A stretch of DNA of 40,188 nt from an uncultured Erysipelotrichaceae bacterium (GTDB lineage Bacteria; Bacillota_I; Bacilli_A; Erysipelotrichales; Erysipelotrichaceae), in NCBI GenBank assembly GCA_900315065.1, contig OMXQ01000012.1, positions 1 through 40,188 of the forward strand, written 5' to 3'. How positions within the stretch are numbered: the first letter of the stretch is position 1; each line of letters opens with the position of its first letter. Both the position numbers and the translations under genes were made by a program. A model generated the notes under the pieces. The model saw only the letters and a list, made by a program, of their open reading frames with translations, did not search any database and was not told the DNA's origin. This document shows, piece after piece, positions 1,470 to 12,373 of the stretch.

Positions 1470-3548
1470 TTACTCAGCCTTACTGCCGTGCTTTTCAATA
1501 ATTTCCTTAGCAATGCTCTTCGGAACTTCTTCGTAATGATCCATGATCATTGTGAAGATGCCACGACCCTGTGTAAAGCCACGCAGGTCAGTAACATAAC
1601 CGAACATTTCAGCTAACGGTACGAATGCCTTAACCTTGATAGCATTGCCTGTTTCTTCCTGTTCACGGATCTGTCCACGTCTCTTGGTAACGTCACCCAT
1701 GACGGCACCCAGATATTCGGACGGAGCTGTGATATCAACAGCCATGATTGGTTCGAGAATTGTCGGACCGCACTTCTTTGCAGCTTCCTTCAAAGCGAGG
1801 GATGCAGCAATCTTATATGCCTGTTCAGAGGAGTCGACATCATGATAAGAACCATCGAACAGTTCTGCTCTGATATCAACTACCGGATAACCTGCAACCA
1901 GACCATTCGGAAGTGCTTCTTCAAGACCCTGCTGCGTTGGCTTGATGAATTCCTTCGGAATAGATCCGCCGACTGTCTGATCTTCGAATTCGAAGCCCTT
2001 GCCTGGGTTCGGCTTGAATCTGATCCATACGTCACCATACTGACCATGACCACCGGACTGTCTGACAAACTTACCCTGAACTTCTGCTTCCTTGGTGATT
2101 GTTTCACGATAAGCAACCTGCGGAGCACCAGCTGTAGCTTCAACCTTGAATTCTCTCTTCATACGATCGAGGATGATATCCAGCTGAAGTTCACCGACAC
2201 CGGCAATGATTGTCTGGCCTGTTTCTTCATCTGTATATGTCTTGAAGGTTGGATCTTCTTCAGCGAGCTTCTGCAGAGCTGTATCCATCTTCTGGGAGTC
2301 AGCCTTTGTCTTAGGTTCAACAGACATCTGAATAACCGGATCCGGGAAGACCATGCGCATCAATTCGATCGGATGTTCTTCGTCACACAATGTATCAGAA
2401 GTTGTTGTGTACTTCAGACCTACTGCACCAGCGATATCGCCTGTGTAAACCTCTTCGATATCAGCACGATGGTTAGCATGCATACGAACCAGACGGCCGA
2501 GTCTTTCTCTCTTACCCTTGGTTGCGTTCAATACATAAGAACCAGCTGTAGCTGTACCGGAATAAACTCTGAAATATGTCAGACGGCCGACGAACGGATC
2601 GGTAGCGATCTTGAATGCAAGAGCGGAGAATGGTTCATCATCACTCGGCTTACGTTCAGACTTTGTGCCGTCCGGCAGATGACCCTCAATAGCAGGGATA
2701 TCTGTAGGAGCCGGCAGATAATCTACAACGGCATCCAGCAGCATCTGAACACCCTTGTTCTTATATGCGGAACCGCACAGAACAGGGAAGAATTCAGAAG
2801 TCATAACGCCCTTACGGATAGCAGCCTTGATTTCTTCGACGGTAGGTTCTTCACCTTCCAGAACCTTCATCATGAGATCATCATCGTAATCGGCAATGGC
2901 TTCGAGCATTTCCTGTCTCTTTTCCTTTGCCTTTTCAATGAATTCAGGTTCGATTTCTTCGACATGGATATCTGTACCCTGGTCGTTTTCATACATTTCC
3001 TGCTTCATTGTTACGAGGTCGATAATACCGCGGAAGCTGCTTTCAGCACCAACCGGCATCTGGATGGCAGCTGCCTTGGCACCTAAACGCTCACCGATAG
3101 AATTGACACTCATATCAAAGTCTGCACCGGTAGCGTCCATCTTGTTGGAGAAGACGATACGCGGTACATGATATTCAGAAGCCTGTCTCCAGACAGTTTC
3201 TGTCTGCGGCTCAACACCAGCCTTGGAGTCAAGGACAGTAACAGCGCCGTCGAGAACACGCAGGGAACGCTCAACTTCAGCAGTGAAGTCTACATGGCCT
3301 GGTGTATCAATAATGTTAATCTGGCAGTCCTTCCAATGACATGTTGTAGCAGCGGAAGTAATGGTAATACCACGTTCCTGTTCCTGCGCCATCCAGTCCA
3401 TCTGGGAAGCGCCATCGTGAGTCTCACCGATCTTATAGATCTTACCAGTGTAATACAGGATACGCTCAGTCGTTGTCGTCTTGCCGGCATCGATATGAGC
3501 CATGATACCAATATTACGAATTTTGCTTAATGGGAACTCTCTTGGCAT
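1470..3548 (-). CDS. fusA: Translation elongation factor G
   Basis: EF-G is the GTPase that drives translocation of tRNA and mRNA on the ribosome. At 692 residues it has full family length. The N-terminal GTPase domain has [34 protein letters not shown] and NKMD. Later domains include the conserved GGHGQYGDV and [11 protein letters not shown] strings. It is the third gene of the str operon, 31 bases after rpsG, and is followed by tuf after a gap that holds a promoter. No second fusA-like paralogue features, such as TetM- or FusB-type signatures, are seen. Identification is certain. Confidence 0.98.
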
Positions 3549-3579
3549 TTAATTCTCCTTCCTTATTAAACCGAGAATA

Positions 3580-4050
3580 TCAGAAGCGATAGTGTGCAAA
3601 CGCCTTGTTTGCTTCAGCCATCTTATGAACGTCTTCCTTCTTCTTTACAGATGCACCTGTACCGTTGGCAGCGTCCATGATTTCGTTAGCGAGTCTTTCT
3701 TCCATTGTCTTCTCATGTCTCAGACGAGCGTAGTTAACGATCCATCTCAGACCGAGTGTAAGCTTTCTTTCAGCAGAAACTTCTACCGGGACCTGCAGGT
3801 TTGCACCACCTACACGTCTTACCTTCAGCTCAAGCTGAGGCATAACATTACCGAGAGCCTTTTCGAATACTTCCATCGGGTTCTCGCCAGTCTTCTTTTC
3901 AATATCAGCGAAGGCATCGTACAGAATTGTCTGTGCTGTGCCTCTCTTGCCGTCGAGCATGATCTTGTTGATCAACTTTGTGACCAGCTTTGAATTGTAG
4001 ATCGGATCCGGCAGGACATCACGCTTTGCAATATAACCTTTTCTTGGCAT
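3580..4050 (-). CDS. rpsG: 30S ribosomal protein S7
   Basis: S7 is a primary 16S rRNA-binding protein that starts assembly of the 30S head and contacts mRNA and tRNA at the exit site. At 156 residues it is the standard bacterial length. The start MPRKG, the central [20 protein letters not shown] region and the C-terminal [15 protein letters not shown] are typical. It sits between rpsL (20-base gap) and fusA (31-base gap) in the conserved str order. In E. coli S7 represses its own operon through the rpsL-rpsG spacer, but the spacer here is only 20 bases and too short for that structure. Confidence 0.98.
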
Positions 4051-4070
4051 GTTCTATCTTCTCCTCTCTC

Positions 4071-4484
4071 TTACTTCTTCGGTTTCTTAGCACCGTACAA
4101 GGAACGGGACTGGTTACGATCAGATACACCAGCACAGTCCAATGTACCACGGATGATATGATAACGAACACCAGGGAGGTCCTTGACACGGCCGCCTCTG
4201 ATCATTACGACAGAGTGTTCCTGCAGGTTGTGACCTACGCCTGGGATATAAGCTGTAACTTCGAGTCCGTTGGAAAGACGAACACGGGCATACTTACGAA
4301 GAGCAGAGTTAGGCTTCTTAGGTGTCATTGTACCGACACGGGTGCAGACGCCTCTCTTCTGCGGAGCATTCAGCTTTGTTGGGTGATTCTGAAGTGAGTT
4401 AAAGCCTCTGTTCAGAGCCGGAGACTTTGACTTGTAAACTTTATCAGTACGGCCTTTGCGTACTAACTGGTTTATTGTTGGCAT
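4071..4484 (-). CDS. rpsL: 30S ribosomal protein S12
   Basis: S12 sits at the decoding centre and influences accuracy. It has 137 residues. The [11 protein letters not shown] string carries the wild-type lysine at the site whose substitution gives streptomycin resistance, and [10 protein letters not shown] and [14 protein letters not shown] are conserved. The usual PG(I/E/V)GHNLQEH loop is intact. The start is supported by an AAGGAG ribosome site (complement of 4492-4497). It is the first gene of the str operon, preceded by a promoter and a leader of about 100 nt with hairpins. Confidence 0.98.
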
Positions 4485-8390: not shown

Positions 8391-8456
8391 ACCAATCCTT
8401 CAGAGAGTCAAAACACACCAGACAGACAATGAAACATTCCACTCAGACAACAGGCA

Positions 8457-8485
8457 TTGAATGGTACAGTAGCACTCTCAATAAT
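8457..8485 (+). promoter_or_regulatory. Promoter of the secreted-protein/sensor locus
   Basis: -35 TTGAAT (8457-8462), 17-base spacer, -10 AATAAT (8480-8485). The predicted start near 8492 is followed by an AAGGAGG ribosome site at 8507-8512 and an ATG at 8520. Confidence 0.55.
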
Positions 8486-8519
8486 GAACATAGATAAAAT
8501 TGTTCAAGGAGGATACAAA

Positions 8520-9079
8520 ATGTTAACAAAACAATTCATCTTAAGCACACTTGCCGCATGCTGCCTGCTTTCTCCTTCTGTCCCCGTCAATGCAGAACAA
8601 CCTACGACTATAGCGGAAACACAGAAACCTATACGATCTATGACCTGAGCAGCAATGAACTCATCGATTCTTTTTCGGTAACTTATCCGATGCAGACGGC
8701 TTCCGCAGACGGCACAAGCACCTCTTTCTTTACACACGATCAAAGAATCGGTGCAGCCGTATCACTACGCTTTACTGCGTGTGTTGACTATTATTCACAA
8801 GGGTCATTCAGATGCTTCAATGCTCTCCGCTATACAAATCCCGGCATCAACCGTTGTGTCACTTCCTGTTCTTTGGAAAATACCGATAAAAGCGCCTGGT
8901 CTTCCAGCGGTAAATGGCCGACAACGCGTCTGGATTATGCCTATACAACCAATATTGTCACCAATGGTTCTGTCTCGGCAAGTGCAGGTGAAATTTTGGC
9001 CAATGCTGGATTTCCCCACAACATTCATTATTACAGACACGTCAGCAATGCCGGTTCATTCAATCTCTATAACGGCTGA
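8520..9079 (+). pseudogene. Secreted protein gene broken by a frameshift
   Basis: A strong promoter and ribosome site lead into a good signal peptide: MLTKQF, a hydrophobic stretch, then PVNAE as a likely cleavage site. Around 8595-8605 this frame runs into TTIAETQKP and stops at 8648. The next frame (shifted back by one) carries on from TTYDYSGNTETYTIYDL to 9079. Together they would make a secreted protein of about 186 residues with four cysteines (ACVDYY, FRCFN, RCVTSC) and many Ser/Thr/Tyr. No slippery heptamer is present at the junction. A one-base deletion or an assembly error is the simplest explanation. I do not recognise the family. It is the first gene of the sensor locus. Confidence 0.65.
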
Positions 9080-9189
9080 AGAAGCATTGGGCAATTCTAT
9101 GCTCAATTCAATGAAGCAGCCATTTTACAAAAAGTATATAATTAAATTAATGCAGTACAGCTTTATATCAGATTCATAAAGATATCATT

Positions 9190-9948
9190 ATGAAAACACT
9201 GAACTTTCACAGATGGATTTTCCTGTGTGTTTTATCCCTTATGACTGCAGGATGTACAAATCAGAATGCAGCAATTGCTTCTTTGCAGACAGCTGAAGAA
9301 GTGATTCAGAATTATGAAGCCAGAAATGATGACAACTATCGGATTTCCACCGTTTCAAGCTGCGCCATCGGTCAGACAGTCGATGAGCAGAATACGGAAC
9401 ACACGATTCAGACAGCTGAAAATCTTGCCTATCGGGGCAATCACTCCTTCATCTCGTCTTCTGTATATGACGATTCTTTCCTGTCAGAAGAGCATAAAAC
9501 ATACCGTACTTATCAAAATAACACCATCGAACAATATGAACACTCTTCAGATAAAGATGTATGGCAGAAAACAAATTTATCTGAAAATCCGGCAGATTTC
9601 CACGAATTCATGGCCACTTTAAGCTCTATTCCATGGTCCGGCTGTCTTTCTACGAAACATGGTTACACATTGACTGCTGAAGCAGAAAACTGCATGGACC
9701 TGTTCCCGGTACTTTATGATACACCGGAACAAAAACAAGCCGTTGCCGAAAAAGCTGTAAAGTTCTATTTTGATCTCAACTGCCGTCTGACCCGCATCGA
9801 ACTAGCTGATGTCCATTGGGAAAACAGCAGCGGGAACACATATCAATATATGATGTATACCTTCAGCATGAACTTTACCGAATACAACCAGGTTGAGGCA
9901 GCTGAAGTAAAGGTGCCTGCCGAAGTCAGAAAAGAAGCCGGACAATAG
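9190..9948 (+). CDS. Putative lipoprotein of the sensor locus
   Basis: A 252-residue exported lipoprotein: basic MKTLNFHR start, hydrophobic core, and lipobox LMTAGC with the lipidated cysteine at residue 22. The mature part is mainly polar, with alternating beta-strand-like segments and a EEVIQNYEARNDDNYRISTV opening. That opening recalls the LolA/LppX-like lipoproteins of Firmicutes that sample hydrophobic ligands or membrane material, but the similarity is only impressionistic. The ribosome site is weak. A TATAAT lies at 9137-9142 without a good -35. The gene ends 22 bases before the response regulator and probably shares its transcript. A sensory or accessory role at the cell surface is inference from context. 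Confidence 0.8.
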   Translation: MKTLNFHRWIFLCVLSLMTAGCTNQNAAIASLQTAEEVIQNYEARNDDNYRISTVSSCAIGQTVDEQNTEHTIQTAENLAYRGNHSFISSSVYDDSFLSEEHKTYRTYQNNTIEQYEHSSDKDVWQKTNLSENPADFHEFMATLSSIPWSGCLSTKHGYTLTAEAENCMDLFPVLYDTPEQKQAVAEKAVKFYFDLNCRLTRIELADVHWENSSGNTYQYMMYTFSMNFTEYNQVEAAEVKVPAEVRKEAGQ

Positions 9949-9970
9949 AAAAGAAAGGAGGCGGTATAAC

Positions 9971-10648
9971 ATGCCATATCCGCTTCACATTTCAATCATT
10001 GATGATGAGCCCGCGGACCAGAAACGCATTTCCGATTGTCTTGCAAAAACAGGGTTTGAATGCTCGATTGATGCATATTCTTCCGGCAATGCATATCTGA
10101 GCAGCAGAAGCTTTTATGACTTTGTCCTCCTTGATATTGAACTTCAGAATGAAGACGGCATACACCTTTCGTCCCTGATCCGCCAAAAAGCAGAAAACAT
10201 TATCTATTTCACTTCTTCCGCGCTGCGTATGCAGGAAGCCTTTGCACCTTCTACTATCGGCTTTCTGCTGAAACAGGACACAGATGAAGAAATCACATCA
10301 GCACTGAAGCGCATATTTTCTTCCTGCATGCAGAAAGGCGTCACTCTTCGTTCTCTTCAGGGCGAAACAAAGATTCCTCCTTTCCGTATCCTGAAAGTAA
10401 CACGTGAAAACAGGAAAATCTTCTTCTACCTCTTTCAGGAAAAAGAAGTACAGATCCTGGATCTTACGCTGCAGGACTGCCTGGCAAAATTTCCGCATCT
10501 TGCCCAGGCAAACAAATCGGAACTGATTAATCTCGATCAGATCCGCACCATGAACAAAAAAGAGCTCATTCTGACGGACGGTTCTTCTGTTCATCCTTCA
10601 CGCATATATTTCGACGAATTGTATCAGCGTTTTCTGGAGGTTTTATGA
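9971..10648 (+). CDS. LytTR-type response regulator
   Basis: A 225-residue DNA-binding response regulator of the AgrA/ComE/VirR class. The receiver domain (about 5-120) keeps the acidic pair Asp11/Asp12 in IIDDEP, the phosphoacceptor Asp55 in LLDIEL, Thr81 and Lys101, so it looks phosphorylatable. The C-terminal half (about 135-225) matches LytTR: basic strands, then NKSELINLDQIRTM, LTDGSSVHPSR and a closing helix. A strong AGGAGG ribosome site precedes it. Its last four bases overlap the sensor gene start (ATGA). The target promoter is most likely its own locus; I see no clear pair of LytTR direct repeats upstream of 8520. Confidence 0.9.
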   Translation: MPYPLHISIIDDEPADQKRISDCLAKTGFECSIDAYSSGNAYLSSRSFYDFVLLDIELQNEDGIHLSSLIRQKAENIIYFTSSALRMQEAFAPSTIGFLLKQDTDEEITSALKRIFSSCMQKGVTLRSLQGETKIPPFRILKVTRENRKIFFYLFQEKEVQILDLTLQDCLAKFPHLAQANKSELINLDQIRTMNKKELILTDGSSVHPSRIYFDELYQRFLEVL

Positions 10649-11847
10649 TTCTTTCATTCAACCTGATTTCCTCCGTGTTATGCGTCGGAATCTATATGTT
10701 GGCTTTCAGAAGTTCCTTGCAAAAAGGGAAATTGATCTTCCCTTTACTCACTTCATCTGTTTTCCTGACAATCCTGCAAAGTCTTTCCTTTCCATCTGAA
10801 GTCATCAGAGAAGCGTTGCTTCTGGGCGTCATAGAAGTGACGATCTTGTCTGCCGCAAAGAAACATACTCCCCTGCAAAGCATGCTCGTTCTGTTCTATC
10901 GCTCTTTGCAGCAGATCATCACCTTATTTATTTTCAAAATACAATTTCTTCTGTTTCACATATTAAATGCCTATGTCCTTACACATATCATCAGTCTGCT
11001 TCTCTGCGGTGCGGTCTTTGTGCTGCTCGGAAGGAAAATCGAAGATATTCAGGAGACCTGTCAGCAGCGGGATCTGATCATTTCTTCGGCAATTGTGACG
11101 CTGATCTTTACCGTTCAGGCAATCATCTTTGATTCTTCTTCCTCGATCATTCTTCATATTGCCGTTATTCTTGCTGCTGCAGCCGTGGTTTATCTTTGCA
11201 TTCACATGATTCTTCTGCAGGGCATGATCGAGACACAGCAATTCGAAGCGCAAAGCCTTGCCGTCAGTACTGATTCCATTAAAGAACTGGAACACAGCAT
11301 CCGCAAAGAAGAAAAAAAACGGCACAACCTGATTCATGAACTGACCCTTATCAATCAGATGCTTTCCAACGGCAATCTTGATGAAGCACAGAAAACAATC
11401 ACTGCTTTAAATAATGATCTGGATCAGGCAGAGCTGTATACATACAGCCGCAATGCTTATGTCAATGCGATGATTGAAAAAACCATTGAAAACCACCTGG
11501 GTTTCAATATAAGTGTCAATTCTTCCATCGGCAGCGAAACAGTCATTCCCACCGTCGATCTTGCCGTTGCCGTTTCTGCGCTGCTTGAACAGATCATTGA
11601 TTTTCTTGAAAAACACAACCTCGAAAAAAAAGCTGTGCTTGAACTTAAGCAGCGCGGAGATATGGTCATTCTGATCCTGCACATTTCAATTGACCATATG
11701 TATTCCGAAGAAGAACTCCTTCCGAAAACCATCCGCACTGCCGCACTGCGTTCCCTGCTTCAGCGCTATCGCGGAATCATGCGCACGCAATGTACAGATC
11801 AGACATGCACCATTACACTTCTGATGAATGGAGAACAAACATCATGA
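10645..11847 (+). CDS. AgrC-like sensor with degenerate kinase core
   Basis: A 400-residue membrane protein with about six transmembrane segments in the first 195 residues, a coiled linker, and a cytoplasmic region matching AgrC/GHKL kinases in layout. The histidine box reads RHNLIHE (His227, His231); AgrC kinases usually have RHD, so the Asp is Asn here. The region matching the N box (usually GNLLDNAIEA) is SALLEQIIDF at 311-320, losing both asparagines needed for Mg-ATP. No GxGL-type glycine box is visible before the end. It is therefore probably inactive or altered as a kinase although the partner regulator looks intact. It overlaps its neighbours by ATGA on both sides. It could act as a phosphatase, a scaffold or a peptide receptor. 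Confidence 0.82.
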   Translation: MILSFNLISSVLCVGIYMLAFRSSLQKGKLIFPLLTSSVFLTILQSLSFPSEVIREALLLGVIEVTILSAAKKHTPLQSMLVLFYRSLQQIITLFIFKIQFLLFHILNAYVLTHIISLLLCGAVFVLLGRKIEDIQETCQQRDLIISSAIVTLIFTVQAIIFDSSSSIILHIAVILAAAAVVYLCIHMILLQGMIETQQFEAQSLAVSTDSIKELEHSIRKEEKKRHNLIHELTLINQMLSNGNLDEAQKTITALNNDLDQAELYTYSRNAYVNAMIEKTIENHLGFNISVNSSIGSETVIPTVDLAVAVSALLEQIIDFLEKHNLEKKAVLELKQRGDMVILILHISIDHMYSEEELLPKTIRTAALRSLLQRYRGIMRTQCTDQTCTITLLMNGEQTS

Positions 11848-12329
11848 ATAAAAGAGATGCATTTATTTTTCTGCTCACATTGACATGTGCCCTGCTGATT
11901 GGAACCATACCTTCCGCAGATTCTATCAGTCATGATCTGCGCTGCACACAATTGTCTGACCAATCTGCTCTGATTGAAAACGGGGACACGCATTTTTCTG
12001 CTTCATTGCACTGTGTCTCTGCTTCTTCCGCTGTTCTTGAAATCTTCACTTCCCGCTTGTATGGATCAGCTCCTTCCTATCTGATCAACATTTCAGAAAC
12101 AGATACGCTCAGAGGATATACATGCAGGCAGGGAACTGTCTTTGTTTCCATGAATGCAATCAATATCGCTTCCTGTGAAATCCGCAGGGGAAATCAATCC
12201 ACGATCTATGAACTTGATTCATCTTCTCCTTTCGTCCTTATTGTCCCGAAAGAAGATATGAAAAACGGAGCAGTCTTATTCAAAGATGTTCTCGGCGAGT
12301 ATATTCCCTTCGACGAAATCCTTCTGTAA
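11844..12329 (+). CDS. Small secreted or membrane-anchored protein
   Basis: A 161-residue protein. The start at 11844 overlaps the sensor stop (ATGA), so it is translationally coupled. MNKRDAF is followed by a hydrophobic stretch (FIFLLTLTCALLIGTI) and PSADS, giving either a cleaved signal peptide or an N-terminal anchor. The outer part contains four cysteines at about 37, 56, 112 and 130 that could form disulfides, and is beta-rich. I do not recognise the family. As the last gene of the regulator-sensor operon it is a candidate extracellular partner, ligand or antagonist of the sensor. That role is inference from coupling alone. Confidence 0.75.
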   Translation: MNKRDAFIFLLTLTCALLIGTIPSADSISHDLRCTQLSDQSALIENGDTHFSASLHCVSASSAVLEIFTSRLYGSAPSYLINISETDTLRGYTCRQGTVFVSMNAINIASCEIRRGNQSTIYELDSSSPFVLIVPKEDMKNGAVLFKDVLGEYIPFDEILL

Positions 12330-12330
12330 G

Positions 12331-12373
12331 AAAAAGAGCACTTCTCATCCATGTGAGAAATGCTCATTTTTGT
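12331..12373. terminator. Bidirectional terminator between sensor locus and purL
   Basis: Arms AGCA-C-TTCTCA and TGAGAA-A-TGCT around the loop TCCATG, flanked by AAAAA on the left and TTTTT on the right. It can end the plus-strand sensor operon and the minus-strand purine operon. Confidence 0.8.

Follow-up and report, generated by a model that had tools for sequence, protein, structure and literature searches.

How can a response regulator with a complete phosphorylation site be controlled when the sensor encoded beside it appears to have lost the means of charging it? This question is raised by a gene pair on contig OMXQ01000012.1 of an uncultured Erysipelotrichaceae bacterium of gut type (assembly GCA_900315065.1), a stretch of 40,188 nucleotides that we call the window (contig C126 of an assembly of 144 contigs, 96.5% complete). 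The pair encodes a LytTR response regulator and a membrane sensor of the AgrC type. An earlier interpretation made without database searches, referred to below as the sequence-only reading, had described a pseudokinase paired with a phosphorylatable regulator, and this proposal has come out stronger than it was made, since 12 further loci share the pattern. The features of the pair are the following.

9971..10648, plus strand: LytTR response regulator with an intact receiver (Pfam Response_reg, 4.8e-11; LytTR, 5.5e-8)
10133..10135, plus strand: codon of Asp55, the phospho-acceptor position, invariant in the partner regulators of 13/13 degenerate sensors
10645..11847, plus strand: membrane sensor of AgrC descent that lacks the N and G boxes, a predicted pseudokinase (hhalign comparison, motif counts and AgrC-like model)
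11323..11325, plus strand: codon of His227, in the H box
11575..11604, plus strand: remnant of the N box, SALLEQIIDF (residues 311-320), with Ala312 and Gln316 where intact relatives carry Asn

The sensor keeps its histidine and lacks the residues of the ATP site

The sensor, a membrane protein, has its DHp and CA regions arranged as in AgrC. Its His227 aligns with the His of 32/32 intact sensors, so that the H box of AgrC is present, and the residues of the AgrC ATP site are absent: both N-box Asn (replaced by Ala312 and Gln316), the Asn of the V-x-N motif and both Gly of the G box. The alignment with intact relatives thus agrees with the sequence-only reading, which had noted the retained His, the altered N box and the missing G box. 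The five regulator residues that it had listed (Asp11, Asp12, Asp55, Thr81 and Lys101) are likewise all found in the alignment, and the protein joins a phospho-Asp receiver to a LytTR domain, as expected for a LytTR response regulator. The two named relatives matched with the regulator are from Erysipelotrichaceae, and a search of viral contigs with it found none.

Taken alone, the sensor has no Pfam kinase match at E<=10. Nevertheless, when a profile of 13 degenerate sensors (described below) was compared by hhalign with one of 11 intact sensors, they matched with a probability of 99.9% (E 3.7e-31) over 210 columns that span DHp and CA. Such sensors escape domain libraries, as the Pfam GHKL family is matched in 11/11 intact sensors and in 1/13 degenerate ones. 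A structure model was built on a 4-row alignment that included three relatives, one of them intact, and this intact sensor may bias the model toward the GHKL fold. Its mean predicted local distance difference test (pLDDT) score is weak (56.5), with fair values of about 60-78 in blocks of the CA region; an AlphaFold model of the sensor alone was set aside (mean pLDDT 50.8). The best Foldseek match of the retained model is S. aureus AgrC (6e52, E 1.6e-7), and against the AgrC CA domain (4bxi) it gives Z 12.1 and a root-mean-square deviation of 3.4 for 130 aligned residues, a result with which many kinase CA domains tie. The hhalign comparison and the CA match of the weak model both point to a DHp domain followed by a GHKL (Bergerat) fold. 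A complete ATP site that had escaped alignment was the other outcome foreseen by the sequence-only reading; the weak model retains the GHKL fold, and none of the ATP residues appears in the alignment of the sensor. A profile search of the PDB with the sensors returned chance matches only, and a search of genome contigs with the sensor found none.

Judged by alignment and model, the sensor is a relative of kinases and descends from AgrC, and it combines a conserved DHp His with a degenerate ATP domain, the combination that marks kinase-derived phosphotransferases. Lacking the ATP residues, it is a pseudokinase that we predict to be blind to ATP.

The same loss recurs in related sensors whose regulators keep the phospho-Asp

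From 59 regions (the window and 58 that were fetched) we obtained 51 AgrC-like sensors, which were sorted by eye on the alignment into 32 intact, 13 degenerate, 2 partial or intact ones near the degenerate group, and 4 that are cut or lie outside it. Left out of the 13 are L041 and L040_7543, which belong to the same clade and are partial or intact, three sensors that contig ends cut (L137, L151 and L152), and L153, which lies outside the clade and has lost the His too. The degenerate sensors belong to nine genomes of one Erysipelotrichaceae genus, and in every one N2, V-x-N and the two G positions are gone; five of the 13 are from G057, an assembly with 10% contamination, and may not come from one organism.

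The Asn at N2 is present in 32/32 intact sensors vs 0/13 degenerate ones, that of V-x-N in 31/32 vs 0/13, and the Gly at G1 and at G2 each in 32/32 vs 0/13, zeros that are partly by construction because the 13 were chosen for the loss of N and G boxes. This choice does not affect the counts for the His and for the regulators. The H-box His is kept in all sensors of both groups (32/32 and 13/13), and it is, together with a Tyr (Tyr272), one of 2 invariant columns among the 210 well-filled ones in the degenerate sensors, whose identity to the window sensor is only 11-23%. The first Asn of the N box is found in 31/32 intact and 5/13 degenerate sensors, the N2 position of the latter is occupied by Q, S, A, K, V, D, I or Y, and their lid region is short. 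In the partner regulators of the 13, Asp55, Asp12 and Lys101 are each conserved in 13/13, Asp11 in 12/13 (one has Glu), and position 81 is Thr (8) or Ser (5) in 13/13.

In autokinases and in many phosphatases the residue that follows the H-box His is acidic. It is acidic in 30/32 intact sensors vs 7/13 degenerate ones, and the residue at +4 also differs. Since these two positions vary while the His is fixed, what has been retained is what a pure phosphotransfer His needs.

A wider search yielded 55 distinct sensors, a set of best matches rather than a census, with the first 5 to 10 candidates scored per genome. Non-intact sensors made up 11/22 in the genus of the window vs 0/33 in other genera of the order.

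A proposed kinase-derived receptor that may exchange phosphate with its regulator

The explanation that we favour, to which we give slightly less than an even chance, is that the sensor is a kinase-derived, ATP-blind membrane receptor that controls its regulator by binding and by His-Asp phosphate exchange. The protein would retain the membrane part of AgrC, DHp helices that carry His227, and a GHKL-like domain that has ceased to bind ATP. Unable to charge its own His227, it would bind the LytTR regulator at the membrane, and phosphate would be swapped between His227 and Asp55, either by removal from a regulator charged by acetyl phosphate or by another system, or by relay to the regulator from another receiver protein. 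An outside signal would alter the hold of the sensor on the regulator, and the regulator, once freed or charged, would activate the operon to which it belongs, with its exported proteins. It is mainly the receiver that catalyses transfer between phospho-His and Asp; a fixed His, ATP residues that are free to vary and a complete receiver fit a phosphotransfer role. Extended to the whole genus, the proposal would describe a radiation of AgrC-derived, ATP-free membrane receptors, each serving its LytTR regulator as a signal-gated phosphotransferase or as a sink for phosphate, i.e., a two-component system without a kinase, which we regard as possible but doubtful.

The closest precedent is PhyT (formerly PhyP) of Sphingomonas, which passages of PMC5898713 describe as a membrane-bound kinase relative with a degenerate ATPase domain and a conserved His, encoded next to its regulator gene, that shuttles phosphate through this His and sequesters the regulator at the membrane. 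In contrast to our sensor, known from its sequence, PhyT has a measured activity and its partner PhyR is not a LytTR protein; the likeness does not imply kinship beyond the kinase fold. ChpT and Spo0B are soluble proteins, not receptors, and have partners distinct from the window regulator. Both are presented in parts of PMC3433190 and PMC5898713 as histidine phosphotransferases with a kinase-like architecture and a conserved His, and ChpT is said there not to autophosphorylate; its fold is kept, its lid is replaced and its crystals contained neither ATP nor ADP (PMC3433190, in part). The window sensor also resembles AgrC of the AgrC/AgrA system, a SPOB_a and GHKL kinase with a LytTR regulator, in its membrane part, DHp His, GHKL-like domain and LytTR partner, but it has neither N nor G box. 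In DivL, a Tyr replaces the His and ATP binding is retained, the reverse of the window sensor. DivL is reportedly another repurposed histidine kinase (PMC4211667).

No AgrB/AgrD pair was seen in the locus. A Pfam scan of the five locus proteins (gene 1 by its mature half only) gave no AgrB at E<=10, AgrB was not sought genome-wide, and a short AgrD could escape such a scan. With no AgrB-like protein among those scanned and the kinase motifs gone, the misfit with Agr noted in the sequence-only reading holds for the window locus.

Kinase-derived proteins that transfer phosphate or hold a regulator are already known; to our knowledge phosphotransferases of this descent are few. The variant described here is of AgrC descent, lies in the membrane and recurs in at least 13 loci. 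No earlier report of an AgrC-type pseudokinase group was found in the open-access literature, a scope that leaves out most subscription papers. The 13 diverged pairs, together with the intact and half-degenerate relatives of the same clade, would allow a stepwise study of the way from a kinase to an ATP-free receptor, and of the control of a regulator whose phosphate site works but whose sensor is unable to charge it.

Several observations weigh against this explanation. For the source of the phosphate there are only candidates (acetyl phosphate, another system or another receiver protein). Within the same genus and the same clade, G048 has an intact sensor and G060 keeps part of the N box. 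The L153 sensor (3142-4350, G052:C185), which lies outside the clade, lacks N, G and His, and its partner regulator keeps all five residues; a regulator may therefore keep these residues without exchanging phosphate with its sensor. G018 has a close relative of the G047 pair in which the regulator is cut and no sensor adjoins it. Finally, no repeats like LytTR sites better than those of shuffled sequence were found before gene 1, where the motif pair was matched in 0.994 and the direct repeat in 0.448 of 2000 shuffles.

Among the alternatives, pure holding is rather unlikely: the membrane protein would sequester the regulator and a signal would release it with no phosphate step. Such is the case of the LytTR regulatory systems (LRS; HdrRM, BrsRM), which passages of PMC6193735 describe as a LytTR regulator and a membrane inhibitor without kinase activity, some near ABC transporter genes and with the regulator gene first, the same gene order as here. 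According to the same passages, however, the regulators of LRS lack both a receiver and a conserved Asp, and their membrane proteins have no predicted kinase domain, whereas our regulator has a receiver (Response_reg 4.8e-11, all five residues) and the receiver residues and the sensor His are fixed in 13/13 pairs.

It is unlikely that we are looking at decay, i.e., at a pair that recently became useless in a crumbling locus, as the frameshift in gene 1 (see below) and the loss of the sensor from the G018 relative might suggest, because the frames of sensor and regulator are whole in 13 loci and the His, Asp55 and Lys101 are fixed despite the low identity of the sensors. A sensor that has remained a kinase by means of an atypical ATP site, as has been argued for AlgZ, would agree with the GHKL fold kept in the model and seems improbable. 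AlgZ retains the N-box Asn; here N2 is replaced in 13/13, the V-x-N Asn and both Gly are gone and the lid is short, and eight different residues at N2 are unlike one alternative ATP site.

Could His227 be charged by an intact kinase? A search of the window genome with intact sensors gave six matches, the weakest of which (E 0.008) was left out of typing; beyond the locus sensor they comprise a CitA/DcuS-like kinase and HisKA-type kinases (types named from sequence). The locus regulator is the one LytTR protein of the assembly, and no other AgrC-type kinase was seen in it, about 4% of the genome being possibly missing. A partner AgrC kinase is unlikely because neither a second LytTR protein nor such a kinase was seen in the assembly, and charging within a mixed dimer is thus very improbable here, even if other members of the genus (e.g., G047, G056, G066 and G068) hold both degenerate and intact sensors.

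History of the loss

All 13 partners of degenerate sensors fall within a clade of 17 rows (support 98/87) in a tree built on 47 partner regulators, proteins that are themselves free of the trait. The other rows of the clade are G140 (another genus, intact), G060 (partial), G048 (intact) and G068:C66 (cut), and the window groups with G060, G048 and G076 (support 97/93). Constraining the 13 as one clade was weakly rejected in the approximately unbiased (AU) test (p 0.034, for a group chosen post hoc from the tree), and constraining 16 rows (the 13 with G048, G060 and the cut G068:C66) was not (p 0.52). A single loss of the ATP site across the group is not supported, given the weak rejection of the 13-only clade and the intact G048 within the clade. 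Since this intact relative of the same genus sits there, repeated loss of the ATP site is probable, or else G048 recovered its own through recombination.

The sequence-only reading had conceded that intact homologues would reduce the case to local decay. Intact and partial relatives do exist, in G048 and G060, next to the 13 degenerate ones; decay at the window locus alone is ruled out by the 12 further loci with the same loss, and a single loss is unsupported. The recurrence of the pattern in some twelve related gene pairs makes it probable that the pair is a signalling part put to new use rather than a gene that has broken down.

The G018 relative (L136, 122-625, G018:C49) is a near copy of the G047 regulator, shortened, with the sensor gone and similar neighbours, and indicates that the pair can be lost.

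Layout of the locus and its exported proteins

The locus is flanked by a gene for an RNA methyltransferase-like protein on the minus strand and by purL, names that were given from sequence. On the plus strand it runs from a broken gene for a secreted protein through the lipoprotein, regulator, sensor and small exported protein genes to a hairpin. The remaining features are the following.

8520..8648, plus strand: signal-peptide half of the broken first gene (open reading frame MLTKQFILSTLAACCLLSPSVPVNAEQ..., stop at 8648)
8558..9079, plus strand: other half of the broken first gene, encoding the mature domain in a different frame (41% identity to an exported G050 protein of 219 residues; G068 has relatives too)
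9190..9948, plus strand: lipoprotein of 252 residues, no known family (lipobox TAGC within the first 22 residues)
11844..12329, plus strand: small exported protein of 161 residues, no known family (N terminus hydrophobic; gene overlaps that of the sensor by ATGA)
12336..12365, no strand assigned: terminator-like hairpin between the locus and purL (12-pair stem scored on the minus strand; T run on the plus strand seen by eye)

The last three genes are joined, as first described, by ATGA overlaps at 10645-10648 (regulator and sensor) and 11844-11847 (sensor and small exported protein). Of the five genes in a row that the sequence-only reading had described, the last four stand and the first is split over two frames, its signal peptide in one and its mature domain in the other. 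The G050 relative has both parts within its single frame (the identity extends over 162 residues), and in a tblastn search of 8450-9200 with it the match begins at residue 58 and covers the mature frame only. No slippery site was seen by eye in gene 1, which, on its sequence, is a broken gene or an assembly error. The frameshift leaves two intact exported genes, not three, and the label of surface sensing given to the locus has no basis in the sequence. A promoter scan found 4 candidates vs 7.0 expected.

Relatives of the mature domain of gene 1 occur in 2/69 other genomes of the genus (one in G050, two in G068), and one G068 copy (L044) has a LytTR regulator and an AgrC-like sensor, the latter intact, in its vicinity. 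Neither the lipoprotein nor the small exported protein has a homologue among these 69 genomes. Among 271 other genomes of the family the lipoprotein has no convincing homologue, only fragments (E 0.002-0.009), and the exported proteins gave no convincing family match in Pfam, NCBIfam or PDB.

Gene neighbourhoods in the relatives

The idea of five genes as one conserved locus is not supported, as the same order was not found elsewhere in homologue searches of the 69 other genus genomes and, for the lipoprotein, the 271 family genomes. The conserved unit is the regulator-sensor pair, which frequently has genes for exported proteins or ABC transporters next to it. One family of exported proteins is found at four loci with degenerate sensors (L038, L039, L042 and L117) and at one with an intact sensor (L123), and further exported families are also common to several loci. 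ABC transporter genes adjoin the pair at L053 and L116 (by eye), and L037 has neither exported protein nor transporter beside it.

Small exported proteins, membrane proteins and an ABC ATPase are encoded together at L048 (4597-7880), L116 (2836-5608) and L053 (4960-8216), sets that we take to be reminiscent of lactococcin-972-like ones. Related thioredoxin-like lipoproteins, identified by eye, lie near two degenerate-sensor pairs, at L039 (3384-3971) and L135 (3076-3744). A mirror case of the window pair may be the LytTR protein at L142 (3908-4594, G069:C2), whose receiver seemingly lacks the phospho-Asp (by eye). AgrB-like proteins, also recognised by eye, adjoin LytTR regulators at L049 (6410-7000), L140 (1160-1825) and L143 (820-1392), with AgrC-like sensor genes beside them at L049 and L140 that are cut by contig ends; by this inspection the three are ordinary Agr-like systems within the same genus.

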